From: Syntrophobacteria bacterium
Lineage (GTDB): Bacteria > Desulfobacterota > Syntrophobacteria > JARFUL01
Direction of reading: 5' to 3'
Length of the DNA: 16,428 nt
NCBI GenBank assembly: GCA_029289015.1
Contig: JARFUL010000280.1
Location: 1 to 16,428 of the forward strand
Part shown: one piece after another, positions 5,427 to 15,667 of the stretch
Layout: each line of letters begins with the position of its first letter
Position numbering within the stretch: position 1 is the stretch's first letter
The notes under the pieces: model-generated
Database searches by the model: none
What the model saw: the letters and a program-made list of their open reading frames with translations, nothing else
Told to the model about the DNA's origin: nothing
Translations under genes and position numbers: made by a program

Positions 5427-6284
5427 GTGATAGTTAATCGGTTCATGAAGCCCACAAGATACCTGATATTGATGCTCCTCGGCGTGCTTCTCCTTGGGCC
5501 CGGCACCGCGCTCTCCCTGACCCAGGAGGAGCAGAACACCATAGATGTATACAAGCAGTGCCGCATGGGGGTGGTGAACATAACCACCACGGAGCTGGGC
5601 TTCGACTTCTTCCTGCAGCCCTACCCCAAAAAGGGCGCGGGCTCGGGCGTGGTGGTGGACAGCCGCGGCTTCGTGGTGACCAACTACCACGTGGTGGCCG
5701 GCGCGAAGCGAATCGAGGTCACCTTCGGGGACGGGACCCGCAGGAAGGCCGAGATCGCGGGCCAGGCCCCGGAGAACGACCTCGCGGTCCTCAGGGTGGA
5801 AAACCCGCCCGGGGGCGCGCTGGCCCTTAGCCTTGGCAACTCCGACAAGGTGGAGGTGGGCCAGAAGGTGATGGCCATAGGCAACCCCTTCGGCCTGGGC
5901 CATACCCTCACCACGGGCACGGTGAGCGCGCTGAGAAGCAGGGTGGGCCACACGGGCGGCGTGATGATAGAGAACGTGATCCAGACCGACGCGGCCATAA
6001 ACCCGGGCAACTCCGGGGGGCCGCTCCTCGACTCGGCCGGCAGGGTCATCGGCATAAACACCTCTATCCTCAGCCCCACCGGCGCATACGTGGGCATCGG
6101 GTTCGCGATACCCGTGAACCAGGCCAAGACCCTCATGCCCTCCCTGGTGTCGCCCGTGCCGAGGCTCGCGGGCTGGGGGATCGCGCTTCTCTTGTTCCTG
6201 GCCCTGTTCCTGTGGATCCGGAAGCGCTTGAAGAAAGCGCCCGCGGTGCCCCGCGGGGAGACCGGGCCGAGGAGGTACCATTGA
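5427..6284 (+). CDS. HtrA/DegP-type serine protease (S1C) without PDZ, with C-terminal membrane anchor
   Basis: A 285-residue exported trypsin-like protease. It has an N-terminal hydrophobic signal (MKPTRYLILMLLGVLLLG), then a chymotrypsin-fold domain with catalytic His88 (VTNYHVV), Asp118 (ENDLAVL) and Ser196 (NPGNSGGPLL), so the triad is intact. HtrA proteases normally continue into one or two PDZ domains. Here the chain instead leaves the protease fold at FAIPVNQAKTLM and runs into a hydrophobic helix (about 249-264, GWGIALLLFLALFLW) followed by a basic RKRLKK stop-transfer and a short tail. The protein is therefore probably held to the inner membrane, with the catalytic domain in the periplasm. 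The start is either the GTG at 5427 (GGGG four bases upstream) or the ATG at 5445, and the signal peptide works with both. It overlaps the next protease by 4 bp. The two are clear tandem duplicates, with shared stretches at DNA level such as AAAAAGGGCGCGGGCTCGGG. Confidence 0.9.
   Translation: MIVNRFMKPTRYLILMLLGVLLLGPGTALSLTQEEQNTIDVYKQCRMGVVNITTTELGFDFFLQPYPKKGAGSGVVVDSRGFVVTNYHVVAGAKRIEVTFGDGTRRKAEIAGQAPENDLAVLRVENPPGGALALSLGNSDKVEVGQKVMAIGNPFGLGHTLTTGTVSALRSRVGHTGGVMIENVIQTDAAINPGNSGGPLLDSAGRVIGINTSILSPTGAYVGIGFAIPVNQAKTLMPSLVSPVPRLAGWGIALLLFLALFLWIRKRLKKAPAVPRGETGPRRYH
6270..6276 (+). promoter_or_regulatory. Ribosome binding site fixing a TTG start for the second protease
   Basis: AGGAGGT lies four bases before the TTG at 6281. 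That TTG overlaps the TGA stop of the preceding gene (TTGA). This decides the start against the in-frame ATG at 6212, which would lie inside the first gene and would put a charged segment in front of the signal peptide. Confidence 0.85.
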
Positions 6285-7351
6285 GACCGCGGATCGTTTT
6301 AGCCCTTGTCCTGGCCCTGGGGCTCCACCTCGCGGCCGCGGTAGCGCTCTATGCGCAGACCGAGGACGAGAGGAACAACGTGGAGATCTACCGCAGGACC
6401 GCGCCCGCGGTGGTGAACATAACCTCCATCACCCTCAGCCGGGACTTCTTCTTCAACGTAATCCCCAAAAAGGGCGCGGGCTCGGGCGCGGTGATCGACG
6501 AGCGGGGCTACGTGCTCACGAACCACCACGTGATCGCGGACGCGCAGCAGCTCATGGTGACCTTCCACGACGGCACGAAGTCCAGGGCCAGGCTGGTGGG
6601 GAAAGACGAGGAGACCGACATAGCGGTGATAAAGGTGGCCAACCCCCCGGCAAACCTCAAGGTTTTGCCCCTGGGCGACTCCGACAGGCTCCAGGTGGGC
6701 CAGAAGGTGATGGCCATGGGCAACCCCTTCGGCCTGGGCCTCACGCTGACCACTGGGGTCATAAGCTCCCTCGGCCGCACCCTCCGCTCCGCGTCCGGCC
6801 GGAAGGTGGACGACATAATCCAGACCGACGCGGCCATAAACCCCGGCAACTCCGGAGGCCCGCTCCTCGACTCCGACGGCATGGTCATAGGCATAAACAC
6901 CTTCATCTTCAGCCCCACGGGCGCGTCCGTGGGCATCGGGTTCGCGATCCCCATCAACACGGTCTCCAGGATACTCTCCGACCTCATAGAAAAGGGCTAC
7001 TACCCCCAGCCCTGGCTCGGGGCCACCGTGGCCACGGTTGACCCCGGCATGGCCGAGAGGCTGAGGCTGCCCGCTGAAAGGGGCGCGCTCCTGGTAAAGG
7101 TGATCCCCGGCAGCCCGGCCCAGCTCGCGGGCCTACAGGGAGCGACCCGCGAGGCCAGGGTGGGAAACATGGTGCTGGGGGTGGGCGGCGACCTGGTGGT
7201 GGCTACGGACGCTAGGCCCGTGAAATCCGCGACGGAACTCATCAGGTTCATCCGGTCCAAGAGGCCCGGCGACACCGTCACCCTGACGATATTCAGCTAT
7301 GATGGAGACAGAAGGAAGGTCACGGTGAGCCTGGGGGAGAGGCCGAGGTAA
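6281..7351 (+). CDS. HtrA/DegP-type periplasmic serine protease (S1C) with one PDZ domain
   Basis: A 356-residue exported protease and chaperone-like quality-control enzyme. From the TTG start the order is: signal peptide (RPRIVLALVLALGLHLAAAV, cleavage probably near ALYA), protease domain with His83 (LTNHHVI), Asp113 (ETDIAVI) and Ser191 (NPGNSGGPLL), then a single PDZ domain from about 245 to 352 (WLGATVATV...GALLVKVIPGSPAQLAGLQG...). Members of this family cleave misfolded envelope proteins, with PDZ domains binding exposed C-termini. The start is set by AGGAGGT four bases upstream, and the TTG overlaps the previous stop, so translation of the pair is probably coupled. The PDZ carries an insertion (GATREARVG) at the position usually read as 'GLKxGDVI', slightly off the standard pattern. 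Two intrinsic terminators follow within about 110 bp. Confidence 0.92.
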   Translation: MRPRIVLALVLALGLHLAAAVALYAQTEDERNNVEIYRRTAPAVVNITSITLSRDFFFNVIPKKGAGSGAVIDERGYVLTNHHVIADAQQLMVTFHDGTKSRARLVGKDEETDIAVIKVANPPANLKVLPLGDSDRLQVGQKVMAMGNPFGLGLTLTTGVISSLGRTLRSASGRKVDDIIQTDAAINPGNSGGPLLDSDGMVIGINTFIFSPTGASVGIGFAIPINTVSRILSDLIEKGYYPQPWLGATVATVDPGMAERLRLPAERGALLVKVIPGSPAQLAGLQGATREARVGNMVLGVGGDLVVATDARPVKSATELIRFIRSKRPGDTVTLTIFSYDGDRRKVTVSLGERPR

Positions 7352-7489: not shown

Positions 7490-8152
7490 TTACGGCTTTG
7501 CCCCGCGGCCCAGCGCGCGCAGCTTGGTCTTGGCTATCGCGGCCAGCACGTCCTGGCCGGGGTAGAGCTGGATAAACTCCCGGTAGTAGATCTTCGCGTC
7601 ATTTATCCTGCCCAGCTTCTCGGAGAGCCTGGCCAGGGAGAAGAGCACCGTGCGGCCGGGCCTTTTCGTCTCCTTGGACGCGTTGAGGAAATACTCGAAG
7701 GCCTCCTCGGTCCTGCCCTGGACCTCGAGCGAGTAGCCCAGCCCCTCAAGCGCAAGGGGCAAGAGAGGGTCGTCCGCCGAGCTCTTGGATATGAAGACGC
7801 GGTAGGCCCGCTCCGCGGCCTTGGGGTCGCCCCGGTAGTACTCCAGGTTGCCCAGGTCCAAAAACCCTATGGGCGCCAGGTCGCGGTCGGCAAGGGTTTC
7901 GAGCAGAGAAGCGGTCTTCTCCAGGGACGCCCTGTCCCAAACGCTCCTCAGGTGAGAGATCACGGCCACGTACTGGGCGGTGGAATGGGCCTCCTTGCGC
8001 TGCATGTACCATTTACCCAGGAAGAAGAGAGCCATCACCACCACCAGGGACGCGCAGGCCCCGATTATCCAGGTCTTGTACTCCTGGTAGAATAGATCCA
8101 TGTGGCTGGGAACCACGAGGTCGGGTCTTTTTCTAGGTCTGTCCGCCGCCAA
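7490..8152 (-). CDS. Membrane-anchored tetratricopeptide-repeat protein
   Basis: A 220-residue protein with a short basic N-terminus, one transmembrane helix (about residues 28-46, TWIIGACASLVVVMALFFLG) and a C-terminal region of helical TPR-like repeats: ASLLETLADRDLAPIGFLDL, GNLEYYRGDPKAAERAYRVF, LPLALEGLGYSLEVQGRTEE and LARLSEKLGRINDAKIYYRE, the last ending in the typical YPGQ. Topology resembles YfgM-type proteins, with TPRs presented outside the cytoplasm to bind partners. The start is a TTG with AGGAGG nine bases upstream; the next in-frame ATG (8101) lacks a ribosome site. It is the last gene of the DUF3786 cluster, 33 bp after the free DUF3786 gene, and converges on the protease pair. 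It may serve as the membrane scaffold for that cluster, but this is only inference from position. Confidence 0.8.
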   Translation of the reverse strand: MAADRPRKRPDLVVPSHMDLFYQEYKTWIIGACASLVVVMALFFLGKWYMQRKEAHSTAQYVAVISHLRSVWDRASLEKTASLLETLADRDLAPIGFLDLGNLEYYRGDPKAAERAYRVFISKSSADDPLLPLALEGLGYSLEVQGRTEEAFEYFLNASKETKRPGRTVLFSLARLSEKLGRINDAKIYYREFIQLYPGQDVLAAIAKTKLRALGRGAKP

Positions 8153-8185
8153 TTTTGGGGGCCTCCTTTTCCAGAAATTCTCGGG

Positions 8186-8794
8186 TCAGCCGGCCCTGGC
8201 CAGCCTCAGGGCCACCTGGGTCACCAGGGACCACACGCAGTCCAGCGGCAAGAACCGATCCACCGAGGAGTCGAAGGTGGTGGCCACCGAGGCCCCGAAC
8301 TCCTCGTCCGCACTCCAGAGGATGAAGCCCAGCGGCACCCAGGGAAGGGGCATCAGCCTGATGGACGCGTCCCCCATGCCCGTGGCCACCCCGCCAAGCC
8401 TTGTGCCCGCTTCGATGAACCCTTCTGGGTCGGTGCCGTACCGCTCTAAGATCACTCCGATCCTCAGCTCGTGGGGCCCGGTGAAGAAGAATTGCCCGCC
8501 CTTGAGCTCCTTTTCCGTGACCGTGCGCCCTATGAGCCCCTTTCCGTCGGCCCTGATCAGATAGTTGAGCACCACCATGTAAAACTCGAAGTTGAGCCCC
8601 TCCCCGGGCTGAATGAGCCTTTGTTGCGGAAGCACGGTGTAGTCTGCGTCGAGGTACCGGAGCAGATAGCCGCCGTCCCTGTGGAGAACCCCCGCGTTCC
8701 GGGTCACCTCCTCGGGGCTCTTCCGGGAAAGCTCCTCCCACAGCGCGGGGTCAACGTCGCGGGGGTCGCGGTAGGGCCTCTTCTCTTCAGCCAT
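8186..8794 (-). CDS. DUF3786-family protein (stand-alone)
   Basis: A 202-residue soluble protein of unknown function. It aligns with the C-terminal two-thirds of the 10118-11002 product: shared blocks are GGYLLRYL / GAYLLEFL, the GLNFEFYMVVLNYLI / DVKGVVYYLAHL segment, GGQFFFTGPHEL / GVNFFKGRYLL, GFIEAGTRLGGVATGMGDAS / GFLKAGEMLGGVSTHKGDGS, RLMPLPWVPL and LWSADEEF, then D-x-SV-x3-LPLD. I recognise this as the DUF3786 pattern, found mainly in anaerobic bacteria and archaea. It has a single cysteine (186) and no obvious catalytic motif. The start is the ATG at 8794 (GAGGG five bases upstream) rather than the GTG at 8800, which abuts the ribosome site. The first 8 bp overlap the DUF2007 gene, implying coupled translation. 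Confidence 0.75.
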   Translation of the reverse strand: MAEEKRPYRDPRDVDPALWEELSRKSPEEVTRNAGVLHRDGGYLLRYLDADYTVLPQQRLIQPGEGLNFEFYMVVLNYLIRADGKGLIGRTVTEKELKGGQFFFTGPHELRIGVILERYGTDPEGFIEAGTRLGGVATGMGDASIRLMPLPWVPLGFILWSADEEFGASVATTFDSSVDRFLPLDCVWSLVTQVALRLARAG

Positions 8795-9038
8795 TGGCAC
8801 CCTCGCCCCGGGCCAGGGACTCGAGGAGCGGCTCTATTATGGCCAGGGCCTTCTCCTTCATGGTTTCGGGCACCAGCAGCGCGCCCCACCCTTTCTGGGG
8901 GATGAATATTCCGTTGTACGCGGTCTCCTCGTGACCCAGAACAAGATGGGGCACCCCCTCCTTTTCGAGCGCGTCCTTTACAAGGTCGGCCTCGAAGCGC
9001 GAGGAGAGCACCTTCACCCGTGTGAGATCGTCTTCCAT
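8787..9038 (-). CDS. DUF2007-type small protein
   Basis: An 83-residue protein. The pattern VKVLSSRFEADLVKDALEKE, followed by GVPHLVLGHEETAYNGIF and GALLVPETMKEKALAIIEPL, is that of DUF2007 proteins (sometimes labelled putative signal-transducing proteins): one small alpha/beta module of the ACT/PII-like size class. The biochemical role is unknown. It has no cysteines, signal or membrane segment. No clear Shine-Dalgarno precedes the ATG, so it may depend on readthrough from the Fe-S gene 16 bp upstream. Its end overlaps the start of the free DUF3786 gene by 8 bp. The family call is moderately secure; function is not inferred. Confidence 0.7.
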   Translation of the reverse strand: MEDDLTRVKVLSSRFEADLVKDALEKEGVPHLVLGHEETAYNGIFIPQKGWGALLVPETMKEKALAIIEPLLESLARGEGANG

Positions 9039-9054
9039 GGCTTAAGGGGTTCGT

Positions 9055-9606
9055 TTATCCCGTTTCGGGGTTTTGGTCAAGGGAAATCCCCGCGGCCCCA
9101 AGCACCGCTTCGGCCCCCGCGAGGTCTCCTTCGCCGTTGAGGAGAGGGGTGCAAAGGGAGAGCGCGCCCTGCCTGCGCATTATCTTCGCTGCAAAGGCCA
9201 TGCAGGTGGGCTCATCGCAGAGCCTGCAGTTGGTGCCTGGAAGGGTTTTGAAGAGGTCCAGCGGCCCCACGGTGATTCTCTTGTCGAAGACAGGGGTGAT
9301 CTCGTCCATCCTTGCGGCCGCGTCCCTGGCCAGCTCCACCAGCTTCTTGAAGATTTCCTCGGCCTCACTCTCGTCCATGACCGCGGTGATGGTGGTTTTT
9401 TTTGGATAGATCCCGATGATGTGGACCGAGTCGAAGTAGTTGATCACCCCGGCCGCGTGCTGGTAGGTGCACCCGGGGATCAGGGCCGCGATGTAGGGCA
9501 GCAGCTCACTGAGGTCGTCCGGGTAGGTCACCACCGCGTTGCGCTTGGTGGAGGTGGGCATGCACTCTATGTTGGTGATCTCAAGATGGTAGGTTTCAAG
9601 AACCAA
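9055..9606 (-). CDS. Four-cysteine (Fe-S)-cluster domain protein
   Basis: A 183-residue protein in two parts. Residues 1-115 form an alpha/beta domain I do not firmly recognise (KRNAVVTYPDDLSELLPYIA ... IGIYPKKTTITAVMDESEAE), with two isolated cysteines (15 and 46). Residues 117-156 hold a (Fe-S)-type domain: DLFKTLPGTNCRLCDEPTC and then MAFAAKIMRRQGALSLC, giving C127-x2-C130-x4-C135-x16-C152. The same four-cysteine module (PF04060 type) occurs in the corrinoid iron-sulfur protein AcsC and RnfB, where it binds a [4Fe-4S] cluster. The start is the TTG at 9606, with AGGAGG eight bases upstream; the GTG at 9615 overlaps that site. The gap from the cysteine-rich gene is 12 bp. It is probably an electron-transfer or cluster-binding partner of its neighbours; substrate and redox partner are unknown. 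Confidence 0.75.
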   Translation of the reverse strand: MVLETYHLEITNIECMPTSTKRNAVVTYPDDLSELLPYIAALIPGCTYQHAAGVINYFDSVHIIGIYPKKTTITAVMDESEAEEIFKKLVELARDAAARMDEITPVFDKRITVGPLDLFKTLPGTNCRLCDEPTCMAFAAKIMRRQGALSLCTPLLNGEGDLAGAEAVLGAAGISLDQNPETG

Positions 9607-9614
9607 CGCAACCA

Positions 9615-9620
9615 CCTCCT
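9615..9620 (-). promoter_or_regulatory. Ribosome binding site fixing a TTG start for the Fe-S protein
   Basis: AGGAGG on the minus strand, eight bases before the TTG at 9606. It overlaps the TAG stop of the preceding cysteine-rich gene (9619-9621), so the two genes are effectively contiguous. Confidence 0.75.
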
Positions 9621-9939
9621 ACTGGCTGCCCGCGGCCTTCATCCTCCGCTCCATCATCGCGAGGTAGGACTCGCTCAGGGGGGAGTCGGAAGACTTGAGG
9701 AGGTCGCAGGGATAGTCCGCGCAGTCCCGCCCGCAGTGGGACACGGACCTTTGGGCCGCGCAAGCCAGGATGGGGCAGGGCTTGCCCCATCTGCGCTCCT
9801 GGAGGGCCATCGCGGTGTCAACCTCCGGGGAGTCGCCCGCTGAGCAGGTGCACACCTCTCCCAGGTAGGCCCTGCAGACCCAGCAGCTTATCCCGCAGGC
9901 CCCTGTGGGCCCGGGGGTCTTGGCTTCACTCCGGCACAT
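9619..9939 (-). CDS. DUF3795-like cysteine-rich protein (stand-alone)
   Basis: A 106-residue protein with eleven cysteines (2, 15, 19, 22, 30, 32, 55, 60, 69, 73, 78). The first block is GACGISCWVC...VCTC (C-x3-C-x2-C-x7-C-x-C). The second is CPILAC...SVSHCGRDCADYPC (C-x4-C-x8-C-x3-C-x4-C). The second block matches in spacing that of the N-terminal domain of the 10118-11002 fusion protein, and CPIL.CA, RDCA and PCD are conserved letter for letter. This is the DUF3795-like pattern, presumed to bind zinc or Fe-S clusters; no enzyme function is established. The ATG start at 9939 has only a weak GGTAGAG-type ribosome site. It lies 12 bp before the Fe-S gene. It is separated from the fusion gene by a 178-bp gap that holds repeat copy B and its terminator, so it may have its own promoter, which I could not identify. 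Confidence 0.75.
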   Translation of the reverse strand: MCRSEAKTPGPTGACGISCWVCRAYLGEVCTCSAGDSPEVDTAMALQERRWGKPCPILACAAQRSVSHCGRDCADYPCDLLKSSDSPLSESYLAMMERRMKAAGSQ

Positions 9940-10017
9940 GGTTTTACTCTACCATCAAAACCCTGCTTTAACAAAACAACCTGTTGGGCCCGGAGCCGGC
10001 TCTTTTCCCATGCCTTC

Positions 10018-10102
10018 GGGTGAGAAGCCCCCAAGTAAGCCAATTAACAGAAAAGGGGCACTGCCCCCCCCCGAGGTTCTCGGGGCGGAGCACCCTCTGT
10101 TG
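10018..10102 (-). repeat. Hairpin-rich dispersed repeat, copy B
   Basis: An approximately 85-bp imperfect copy of the element at 7369-7452 in opposite orientation. Read on the minus strand it runs CAACAGAGGG, GCTCCGCCCCGAGAACCTCG, a run of nine G, CAGTGCCCCTTTTCTGTT, then TTGGCTTACTTGGGGGC. A 23-base stretch ending in AACAGAAAAGGG (plus strand) matches copy A at 20 positions. It lies immediately 3' of the DUF3795-DUF3786 fusion gene, in the sense orientation, as copy A does relative to the proteases. Confidence 0.65.
10051..10067 (-). terminator. Intrinsic terminator inside repeat copy B
   Basis: On the minus strand GGGGC pairs with GCCCC across AGT, followed by TTTTCTGTT. It is placed 51 bp after the stop of the fusion gene, so it should separate that transcript from the downstream cysteine-rich gene at least partly. 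Confidence 0.6.
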
Positions 10103-10117
10103 TACCGGATCATCCGG

Positions 10118-11002
10118 CTATCCGGCCCACGCGGCCACCCGGTCGAGGAGCACGTTCAAGAGGTCTGAGAGGAGGTCCAGGGGCAGGTGGTTTTCCACGG
10201 AGCGGTCCAGGATGAGGGTGAGCCTTGCGGGGAAGTCCTCGTCCGCGGACCAGAGTATCAGCTCCACCGGCACCCTGGGGAGGAGCATGATCCTGAACGA
10301 GCCGTCCCCCTTGTGGGTGGACACCCCGCCAAGCATCTCCCCGGCTTTTAGGAACCCTTTGGGGTTTGAGGGGAACGCTTCTTCCACGGCCCGGGTGTTT
10401 AGGAGGTAGCGTCCCTTGAAGAAGTTTACCCCCCGGTTGAGCTCCGGCGGAGTGACGGGCGCACCGAGGAGCTGGCCTCCGGGAAGGTGCGCGAGGTAGT
10501 AGACCACCCCTTTCACGTCTACGAGGTCGGGTACCGCGCCCCCCTTTCGCTCCACCTTTTTCGCTGCGGGGTCCACCCTGAAACCGACCCCCAGGAACTC
10601 GAGCAGATACGCGCCGCGCTCGAGGACCGCGCCCGACTTTTCCACCACCCTTTCCGGCTCGAGGGAGTTCAGCCTCTCCCAGACATCCCCGGGGAGGGCC
10701 CGCTCCGGCCTGATCTGGATGTGGCGGGCGTCTCTGGCCCTCTTTTCCAGGTGGGCCCGGGAGAATGGATACCCGGAGTCAGCGAACTCGTCGCAGGGAA
10801 AAAGCGCGCAGTCCCTGGGGCAGTAGGCCACGGATTTTTCCTCCGCGCACTTGAGGATCGGGCAGAACCCGCCAAAGGCCTGGAGCTGGGCCGCGAGCTT
10901 CCTCGCGCCGCCGAGCGACGTGCCCGCGTCGCAGGAGCTGCACAGCCCCATGACGTTGAGCCGGCAGGCTCCGCAGTCTATACCGCAAGCTCCTATGGCC
11001 AT
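10118..11002 (-). CDS. DUF3795-like cysteine-rich domain fused to DUF3786 domain
   Basis: A 294-residue two-domain protein. Residues 4-75 are a ten-cysteine domain: Cys 6, 10, 13, 21, 24 and then 47, 52, 61, 65, 70 in CPILKC...SVAYCPRDCALFPC. This resembles DUF3795 and suits zinc or Fe-S binding. Residues 105-294 are a DUF3786 domain, recognisable by GAYLLEFLG, GVNFFKGRYLL, GFLKAGEMLGGVSTHKGDGS, LPRVPVELILWSADEDF and SVENHLPLD. No signal peptide or membrane helix. The same two domains occur downstream as separate genes (9619-9939 and 8186-8794), which argues that they work as a unit. The ATG at 11002 has only a weak ribosome site (GGG); the promoter candidate lies at 11073-11101, with a GC-rich stem-loop at the start of the leader. 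Function unknown; anaerobic metal or redox metabolism is an inference. Confidence 0.78.
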   Translation of the reverse strand: MAIGACGIDCGACRLNVMGLCSSCDAGTSLGGARKLAAQLQAFGGFCPILKCAEEKSVAYCPRDCALFPCDEFADSGYPFSRAHLEKRARDARHIQIRPERALPGDVWERLNSLEPERVVEKSGAVLERGAYLLEFLGVGFRVDPAAKKVERKGGAVPDLVDVKGVVYYLAHLPGGQLLGAPVTPPELNRGVNFFKGRYLLNTRAVEEAFPSNPKGFLKAGEMLGGVSTHKGDGSFRIMLLPRVPVELILWSADEDFPARLTLILDRSVENHLPLDLLSDLLNVLLDRVAAWAG

Positions 11003-11065: not shown

Positions 11066-11072
11066 TGATTAT

Positions 11073-11101
11073 CTTTTATCCCACAGGCCGCGTCAGGTCA
11101 A
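11073..11101 (-). promoter_or_regulatory. Sigma-70-type promoter candidate of the fusion gene
   Basis: On the minus strand: -35 TTGACC (11096-11101, 5 of 6), a 17-base spacer, and -10 TAAAAG (11073-11078, 4 of 6). A second -10-like GATAAT lies just downstream but is too far from the -35. Predicted initiation falls near 11066, giving a leader of about 64 nt. Confidence 0.45.
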
Positions 11102-13989: not shown

Positions 13990-14802
13990 TTACGCGCGAA
14001 GCCCCCCGGCCCAGCGCGAGACCGCGTGTTCAAGAACCCTGAAGAAGGGAACTGAGCCCCCGAGCCCCTTCCTGCCGAAACAGTAGTTTATCTCCAGGAA
14101 CATCGGCTCATCCGAGCCCCGGGGAAAGATCAGGTCGAATCCGGCCAGGTTGACGCCGGTCCTGGCCACCGCGTCCCTCACCGCCGCGATCCCTCTTTTC
14201 AGGAGGCGGGGCTCCCCTTCCCTGTCTATCCTGGCTCCCATCGCGAGGTTGTTGCGGAACTCGCCCTCTCTCTCCTGGCGCCGCCAGTATGCGTAGGCCC
14301 TGTCTCCTATGGCCACCACCCTCATGTCCCGGCCCGCGGAGTCGAGGAACTCCTGGGCCACCACCGGGCCCTGCGCGCCCCGCATGTAGCCCGCGACACC
14401 TTCGAGGGCCGCGTCGAGCTCCCCGGGGCTCCGGGCCAGAAAGACCCCCTGGCCGCCGCCTCCCCAGTGCGCCTTTACCACCAGGGGAAATTTCAGCCCT
14501 TTGGAACTTCTCAGCCCCTCAATACCGGCAAAGAGCCAGGTCTTCGGGTGGTTTAGGCCGAACCGCTCGAAGAAGCGGGCGTTGCCCCATTTTCCCTCGA
14601 GGCCGAACCTGTAGTCGTAGTTGGGAAAGAGGCGCAAGCCCGCCTGGCGGAGAAGCCAGTACTGCCAGCCGCGCACCGCCTGGGAGACCACCGCGCCCCT
14701 GAACCTGCCCGCGTCGGGCCCCCCGAGGAGCCCCATGAGCGCTTCCCGGGTCATGGGCAGCCTCTTGTCGCCCTTGATGCGCGGATGAAACGATACGATC
14801 AT
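13990..14802 (-). CDS. RimK-like ATP-grasp ligase
   Basis: A 270-residue protein with an ATP-grasp core. Motifs: FPLVVKAHWGGGGQGVFLA (Lys110 and a glycine-rich loop at 114-119), VVAQEFLDSAGRDMRVVAIG (Glu151, Arg161), the typical FRNNLAMGA strand with acceptor-side residues, and GFDLIFPRGS ... EPMFLEINYCFG with the metal-binding Asp223, Glu237 and Asn239. This pattern is closest to RimK and glutathione-synthetase-like ligases, which join an amine to a carboxylate using ATP. The N-terminal 85 residues are shorter than in classic RimK. No substrate peptide, peptidase or partner is recognisable nearby, so peptide modification, small-molecule ligation or protein tailing are all possible. The ATG start has AAAGG five bases upstream. 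It lies 91 bp behind the EEP gene. Confidence 0.85.
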   Translation of the reverse strand: MIVSFHPRIKGDKRLPMTREALMGLLGGPDAGRFRGAVVSQAVRGWQYWLLRQAGLRLFPNYDYRFGLEGKWGNARFFERFGLNHPKTWLFAGIEGLRSSKGLKFPLVVKAHWGGGGQGVFLARSPGELDAALEGVAGYMRGAQGPVVAQEFLDSAGRDMRVVAIGDRAYAYWRRQEREGEFRNNLAMGARIDREGEPRLLKRGIAAVRDAVARTGVNLAGFDLIFPRGSDEPMFLEINYCFGRKGLGGSVPFFRVLEHAVSRWAGGLRA

Positions 14803-14893
14803 CTGGACCTTTGGACCGGCGGGCCGAGCCCTCGGACGCTGCGGCCCACCTCTTTCAGTGTCAAAGCCGGACCCTTGGCTCTCGGGCTTCGGG

Positions 14894-15667
14894 TCACCGG
14901 GGCTCTCCGAAATCCGCGTCCGCGACCACGGGAAAGTGATCCGAGGGGTAGCGCCCTTGCCGGCTCTCCCGGATCAGAAAGCAGGCCCTCGGCGTGAAGT
15001 TGCGGGAGAAGAGGATCCAGTCTATCCTCGCGCACTCCGGATGGCCCGTAAACCCGTGGAATGTGTACGAATCTTTCCCGCTGGGCATGCCCAGAACGTC
15101 CCAGGGGTCCACCAGCCCGAGGGGATCGCAGGTGAACAGGCGGTACACCCCGAGCCCGGGCGCTTCGTTCATGTCCCCCGCGACCACCACGGGCCCCTTC
15201 CTCTTTTTGAGGAACTCGAGGATCATGCGCGCGCCCTTTATCCTGGCCATGGCCGAGATGTTGTCCAGGTGGGTGACGAGAAAGGTCAGGGTTTCGCCCC
15301 CCATCCTGAAGAGGCCGTACGCGGCCATCCTGGGCCACTTGGACCCCCAGCTCCTGGACATGGGCACATGGGGGGTCTGGGAGAGCCAGAACTCACCGCC
15401 CTCTATGGGCTCGAGCAGCTCCTCGCGGTAGAGGATGGTGGGCAGCTGGGGCGCGTCTTTGAGGGACCGGCCGGGCGCGTAGACCCGGTAGCCCTCCAGG
15501 CGGCTCTCCAGGTACTCGATCTGGTGGGGAAGCCCCTCCTGGGTGCCCAGGAGGTCGGGCGAGTAATCATTGATGGTCTCGAAAGCCGCGTCCCGCCTGA
15601 ACTCCCAGCTGTTGGGGCCGTCCTCCACGCTGTCGAACCTCAGGTTGAGGGTCATTATCCTGAGCAT
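14894..15667 (-). CDS. Endonuclease/exonuclease/phosphatase (EEP) superfamily protein
   Basis: A 257-residue protein of the DNase I-like fold, with its active-site set intact: Asn8 in TLNLRFD, Glu44 in GTQEGLPHQ, His133 in VTHLDN, Asp165 and Asn167 in VVAGDMNEAP, Asp216 in RIDWILFS, and Asp243-His244 in YPSDHFPVVAD. The group uses Mg2+ to hydrolyse phosphodiesters or phosphomonoesters. The bacterial stand-alone members of about 250 residues include putative nucleases, phospholipases and sugar-phosphate phosphatases, and the substrate here cannot be chosen. No signal peptide. The start is the ATG at 15667, with AAGGGG seven bases upstream. It is likely the first gene of the unit continuing to the ATP-grasp and flavodoxin genes. 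Confidence 0.9.
   Translation of the reverse strand: MLRIMTLNLRFDSVEDGPNSWEFRRDAAFETINDYSPDLLGTQEGLPHQIEYLESRLEGYRVYAPGRSLKDAPQLPTILYREELLEPIEGGEFWLSQTPHVPMSRSWGSKWPRMAAYGLFRMGGETLTFLVTHLDNISAMARIKGARMILEFLKKRKGPVVVAGDMNEAPGLGVYRLFTCDPLGLVDPWDVLGMPSGKDSYTFHGFTGHPECARIDWILFSRNFTPRACFLIRESRQGRYPSDHFPVVADADFGEPR

Follow-up and report, generated by a model that had tools for sequence, protein, structure and literature searches.

What joint function, if any, is served by six collinear minus-strand genes, here A to F, on contig JARFUL010000280.1 of a Syntrophobacteria bacterium (phylum Desulfobacterota, assembly GCA_029289015.1)? The contig was analysed over its full length of 16,428 nucleotides and is referred to below as the window. 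An earlier note on this DNA had suggested that the genes form an undescribed metal or redox system, possibly of anaerobic one-carbon (C1) chemistry. Our results indicated that the C-D-E part is a real conserved module, for which no description was found, and that the DUF3786 family, to which A and E belong, is tied to carbon monoxide dehydrogenase/acetyl-CoA synthase (CODH/ACS). Tentatively, and at somewhat less than even confidence, we propose that anaerobic Desulfobacterota conserve C-D-E(-F) as an accessory module, A/B forming a second unit. In this module, DUF3786 would act as partner to a [4Fe-4S] domain of the type found in the corrinoid iron-sulfur protein (CoFeSP), and the module would help an oxygen-labile metal enzyme.

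The search with C gave matches at E 0.001 in 39 of 40 genomes, the source genome included, many of which were to the Fe-S domain only or to paralogues. Arrangements were counted around the 18 best C matches (38-50% identity), weaker ones being treated as paralogues or Fe-S-only proteins; genes in the fetched loci (L numbers) are mechanical open frames. The loci belong to class relatives, which appear to include Desulfacinum, Desulfosoma, Thermodesulforhabdus and Desulforhabdus. In 16 of the 18, C is followed by E or by a D-E fusion; of the two exceptions, one stretch ends ~0.2 kb past C (L037) and the other shows no D/E in ~6 kb (L036). D and E are a single open frame in ten relatives and D is a separate gene in five, a homologue of the tetratricopeptide repeat (TPR) protein F follows E in six of the 18, and a DUF1232-DnaJ gene precedes C in all 18 (Pfam was run on three). 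Because this order recurs in divergent relatives and D and E are fused in many of them, the linkage of C, D and E exceeds chance. The earlier note had named as refutation that the set never recurs in other genomes, and this does not hold for the core; all six genes together were seen at no other locus. Neither A nor B was found in the C-D-E neighbourhoods of class relatives, and the idea that they are part of the class-wide arrangement was rejected; DUF3795, absent from these loci, is fused or adjacent to DUF3786 elsewhere.

It could be argued that these are housekeeping neighbours without joint function, kept together by descent within one class. In one family, synteny near C does reach unrelated genes (EEP, nitrilase-like and AroE/AroA/TyrA-like), and the absence of A and B from the relatives' neighbourhood would also fit. 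However, the C-D-E core is constant while its flanks differ between families f2, f4, f5 and f6, and the D-E, Fe-S-DUF3786 and DUF3795-DUF3786 fusions all share one domain, which makes this explanation highly improbable in our judgement.

In the window, all six open frames were confirmed at the positions of the earlier description, with B to E tightly packed (Table 1). The A-B gap is 178 bp, B and C are separated by 3 bp (C start GTG 9615) or 12 bp (start 9606, the one in the earlier note), C and D by 16 bp and E and F by 33 bp. The frames of D and E share 8-14 bp, with E starting at ATG 8794 or GTG 8800. Judged by pattern matches, A may be a separate transcript, with a promoter-like site upstream of it and a terminator-like stem behind it, the latter being one among 13 terminator-like matches seen in the region versus 3.9 expected. 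Both E (121.9 bits) and A (90 bits) are DUF3786 proteins (PF12654, cut-off 27). B exceeds the DUF3795 cut-off (PF12675, 23.8 versus 22.6 bits); the N-terminus of A falls under it at 18.8 bits and aligns with B, hence DUF3795-like. DUF3795 is cysteine-rich, with invariant cysteines in the alignment of A, B and relatives. D is DUF2007-like only (PF09413, 22.5 bits, under the cut-off of 25.7), and F has TPR repeats (Pfam) after a hydrophobic segment.

Table 1. Genes and signal-like patterns of the six-gene region (window coordinates).
Feature	Position	Strand	Description
Gene A	10118..11002	-	294 aa; DUF3795-like N-terminus fused to DUF3786
Gene B	9619..9939	-	106 aa; stand-alone DUF3795
Gene C	9055..9615	-	186 aa, start GTG 9615 or later; predicted TBP-like N-terminal domain + CoFeSP-type [4Fe-4S] domain
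Gene D	8787..9038	-	83 aa; DUF2007-like small alpha/beta domain
Gene E	8186..8800	-	204 aa; DUF3786
Gene F	7490..8152	-	220 aa; N-terminal hydrophobic segment (by eye) + TPR repeats
Terminator-like stem, A/B interval	10050..10072	-	pattern match only
Promoter-like site upstream of A	11068..11096	-	pattern match only

C carries a C-terminal PF04060 Fe-S domain (45.7 bits versus a cut-off of 23), and its N-terminal half has no Pfam assignment. The four-cysteine module of the AcsC kind claimed earlier was borne out, the domain being of CoFeSP type by both sequence and predicted fold. In an alignment of 17 C-type proteins, two of which are paralogues, C18, C130, C133, C138 and C155 are invariant, the last four being the conserved cysteines of PF04060. 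In the predicted structure, the N-terminal domain has the same fold as the repeats of the TATA-binding protein (TBP), and C is accordingly predicted to be a TBP-like fold carrying a [4Fe-4S] domain of CoFeSP type. The N-terminal [4Fe-4S] domain of AcsC/CdhE is like C in its four-cysteine sequence and predicted fold, but the common part is confined to residues 117-160 of C, which has the TBP-like domain in place of the remaining AcsC. An assignment of C as AcsC/CdhE was rejected, as NF003195 scored 48.8 bits against a cut-off of 306 and covered residues 117-160 only, and so was RnfB (TIGR01944, 14.7 bits against 68.7).

Paralogues in arsenic-type clusters share the two-part architecture and the five cysteines of C (two rows aligned), but are ~25-32% identical to it and have arsenic-type neighbour genes. 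Such neighbours were seen in 16 of the 22 stretches fetched (L053, L054, L057-L061, L063-L069, L071 and L073). Judged by their sequences, they are presumably ArsR, DGC, Acr3, ArsC, thioredoxin and CcdA in varying sets, with Acr3 confirmed in L060 only; no paper on arsenic clusters containing a zinc-binding protein came up in the literature searched. L103 and L105 each combine a C paralogue with a DGC gene and a DUF3786 gene, the DUF3786 being Fe-S-fused in L103, and in L234 and L235 an Fe-S-DUF3786 fusion gene lies among rubrerythrin, rubredoxin and ferritin-like genes. The module might then protect against metal or oxidative stress, handling thiol-bound metals or damaged Fe-S centres instead of serving one enzyme. 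This would suit the company of the C paralogues (under names mostly presumed), the arrangement in L103 and L105, the two fusions beside rubrerythrin genes and the cysteine-rich nature of DUF3795. No arsenic-type family recurs around the 18 C-D-E loci, however, and other DUF3786 genes are linked to a biosynthetic operon; we regard a general protective role as unlikely.

Among the domains of the cluster, DUF3786 is the hub. It is fused to DUF2007-like domains in the D-E proteins, to a CoFeSP-type Fe-S domain in 17 distinct proteins, and to DUF3795 in A of the window, in seven near-full-length database relatives and in L218; in three genomes of one family, a DUF3786 gene overlaps a DUF3795 gene. 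The DUF3786 part gave a confident structure model, for which Foldseek returned no match at E <=0.001; a second comparison, spanning mainly residues 6-81 and 200-285, gave middling Z. For D, a structure search on the Desulfacinum D-E fusion gave middling matches to common folds. Trees of 75 and then 114 DUF3786 domains agree on an Fe-S-fused group and on a clade III, with the set of CODH/ACS and CooC loci between them. Every C-D-E locus and both window copies fall in clade III (support 100/99), which counts 23 rows in the first tree and 47 in the second, where 20 further phylum loci and four rows from other phyla join it; A sits on a long branch and its exact place is unsure. The supported core of the CODH/ACS-CooC group in the 114-domain tree (25 rows, 95/84, two from other phyla) is narrower than the group in the 75-domain tree.

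Within the phylum, DUF3786 was found in 117 of 198 genomes and CdhD in 160 at E 0.001. At a limit of E < 1e-40 for CdhD, which was our own choice, 114 genomes hold both, three DUF3786 only (the source genome, G097 and G196), 23 CdhD only and 58 neither, an odds ratio of 96 (p 3e-27) without phylogeny correction. In at least 13 genomes, DUF3786 and CdhD lie on one contig at most ~4 kb apart, and DUF3786 there comes after AcsB-AcsC-AcsE or AcsB-AcsC-NuoE-NuoF(-CooC). AcsB was confirmed in L189 (1084 bits), and AcsE-type proteins match NF005719/NF040758 under the cut-off; the names CooC, AcsC, NuoE and NuoF are presumed from the sequences, and that of AcsC agrees with where CdhD was matched. By tblastn, CODH/ACS or CooC-like neighbours were detected at 15 of the 31 loci of the CODH/ACS-CooC grouping in the 75-domain tree, 11 of the 31 having short flanks only, and all 15 fall inside the narrower group of the 114-domain tree (23 phylum rows). 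AcsC matches to short Fe-S segments and weak NuoE/NuoF matches in L222 were not counted as CODH/ACS. None of the 12 Fe-S-fused stretches showed such a neighbour by tblastn.

The link extends beyond the phylum. DUF3786 was found in 20 of 27 genomes outside it, a biased choice made via the Fe-S motif, and 20 of the DUF3786 places listed there were examined. In Eubacterium callanderi, one of four DUF3786 copies is within the CODH/ACS operon, between RACo/AcsV and AcsD, in the order CooC-like, RACo/AcsV, DUF3786, AcsD, AcsC, AcsE, AcsA, CooC. AcsC, AcsE and the last CooC were identified by tblastn, and the remaining genes are presumably CooC-like, RACo/AcsV, AcsD and AcsA. An Acidobacteria metagenome-assembled genome (MAG; L293) has a DUF3786 gene that overlaps one for a CooC-like protein; 2.3 kb from it lies an AcsE-like fragment. 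DUF3786 genes are present in operons that also hold the CODH/ACS accessory genes, namely cooC, acsV/RACo and an unnamed open reading frame (ORF) of acetogens. For E. limosum, one paper describes a single operon of cooC1, acsV and the hypothetical protein ELIM_c1649 (PMC5651825). By its position, the DUF3786 gene of the E. callanderi operon is very likely the same gene as ELIM_c1649. Two hypothetical ORFs are given for the A. woodii cluster in another paper (PMC3315566), and an orf2 is mentioned for related strains, and as absent from E. limosum, in a third (PMC10625859). No function for DUF3786 or DUF3795 was found in the literature searched, nor any paper on PF12654.

The window copies differ from those of CODH/ACS operons, since they belong to clade III in the tree and have no CODH/ACS gene nearby; on the latter ground, we rejected the possibility that this cluster belongs to a CODH/ACS locus. 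A third DUF3786 gene of the source genome, on contig C83, was placed with the CODH/ACS-CooC group and has the features of that group: one strand of L004:1988-5985 carries DUF1786, and the other DUF3786, a CooC-like ATPase and FolE2. The names CooC and FolE2 are presumed, and DUF1786 is presumably an ASKHA-like ATPase by its motif. Contig C229 holds the end of a CdhD-family gene at its edge, followed by an AcsE-type methyltransferase. CdhC (PF03598) was not found in this assembly, which is 89% complete and in which the AcsC-type fragment is truncated by the end of its contig. These genes suggest that CODH/ACS, with a DUF3786 of its own, is probably present in the organism, the window pair being additional.

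Other contexts were seen within clade III. In L243, L244, L249, L259, L197 and L201, a gene encoding an AccA-AccD fusion carboxyltransferase is immediately followed, or overlapped, by a clade III DUF3786 gene, and at L035, L038 and L041 there is overlap between the D-E fusion gene and an acetyl-CoA hydrolase/transferase-GNAT frame. By neighbourhood only, acetyl-CoA enzymes are candidate clients of clade III. The same contexts (six and three loci) would suit a regulatory module, in which D acts as a PII/ACT-like sensor, E as a target-binding domain that tunes acetyl-CoA enzymes and C as a redox reporter. However, the structure matches of D are middling ones to common folds, no motif for effector binding was recognised, and the other clade III loci examined have no recurrent acetyl-CoA enzyme neighbour, so that regulation seems to us an improbable main role.

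Under the accessory-module proposal, C would be a small redox or cluster-carrying protein whose TBP-like domain presents the AcsC-kind [4Fe-4S] domain, and E would dock on that domain as an assembly aid or redox partner. The docking is proposed because a CoFeSP-type [4Fe-4S] domain recurs beside or fused to DUF3786: in cis in the Fe-S-fused group, in AcsC in CODH/ACS operons, and in C in the window and its relatives. D may be a small adaptor or sensor acting with E, and the cysteine-rich DUF3795 units may serve as extra metal-binding modules. F, with the DUF1232-DnaJ protein in relatives, would tether the set to the membrane and, via DnaK, link it to protein assembly. The DUF1232-DnaJ gene is absent from the window, and the search of the source genome gave J-domain matches only and no whole protein. 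A J-domain protein gene adjoining an Fe-S protein gene, as in the relatives, presumably recalls HscB of the iron-sulfur cluster (ISC) system; the J-protein of the relatives is DUF1232 plus DnaJ, unlike HscB. The target of the whole module may be an oxygen-labile metal enzyme, which it would help to build, to reduce or to protect. With more doubt than assent, we also consider that DUF3786 could be a partner, so far overlooked, of CoFeSP-type [4Fe-4S] domains in general, be it in cis, with AcsC as the unnamed ORF of acetogens, or with C; the window would then hold a paralogous system for assembling or reducing another oxygen-sensitive enzyme.

Several observations weigh against the proposed module and its link to CODH/ACS. 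The main weakness is that clade III copies occur without C nearby: outside the class, neither C nor a DUF2007-like gene was found in any of the 22 clade III stretches (L243-L259, L197, L201, L218, L226 and L227), and in three class genomes a D-E fusion stands without C in the stretch available (L260-L262), which implies that C can be dispensed with in some cases. The DUF3786 alignments show no conserved cysteine or histidine; conserved acidic residues of E are D144, D165, E167 and D177. A tblastn search of 44 clade III stretches, the window included and 42 of them holding a DUF3786 gene, detected neither CODH/ACS nor CooC genes; a clade III copy of an Aminicenantes MAG (L294), additional to these, has a CooC-like gene ~6 kb away. 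The anaerobic C1 idea of the earlier note therefore fits the DUF3786 family, through its co-occurrence with CdhD and its operons, but not directly the window cluster. Moreover, 23 of the 198 phylum genomes have CODH/ACS without DUF3786, none of the four archaeal genomes among the 27 has DUF3786, and the controls M. jannaschii and M. acetivorans have CdhD and lack it. In the stretch available at 14 other-phyla loci with a full-length AcsC-like frame (444-469 aa), no DUF3786 was seen, and the E. callanderi and Acidobacteria copies lie outside the supported Desulfobacterota CODH/ACS-CooC core of the 114-domain tree, as well as outside clade III and the Fe-S-fused group. Finally, H. pylori is not known to have CODH/ACS. 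Its HP0386 is termed DUF3786 in one paper.

The source assembly consists of 338 contigs and is the sole member of its family among the genomes searched. Elsewhere in the window, the genes look ordinary: HD, PAC2, a carboxylase-type pair of PYC_OADA and biotin carboxylase, NUDIX, a GNAT protein near RimI that scores under the RimI cut-off, a sigma-54 activator, proteins of flavodoxin-like, ATP-grasp and EEP-family type, a Sir2-type partial frame and two trypsin-like (HtrA-type) proteases. The genes of these proteases stand in tandem with overlapping frames at 5427-7351 on the plus strand, the first without a PDZ match. EEP and ATP-grasp genes lie at 13990-15667 on the minus strand, and homologues of both are also near C in relatives of one family, indicating shared ancestry of the region. 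The window is free of tRNA genes and of Rfam matches at gathering score.

Taken together, these results place DUF3786, a family without known function, in a concrete genomic setting, the CODH/ACS operon of anaerobes, among them a named acetogen, and divide it into testable paralogous systems. If DUF3786 proves to be an accessory so far missing from the picture of CODH/ACS or of Fe-S/corrinoid handling, this would bear on how the oxygen-sensitive CODH/ACS is built and kept active, and the window module would be a parallel machine for another enzyme.

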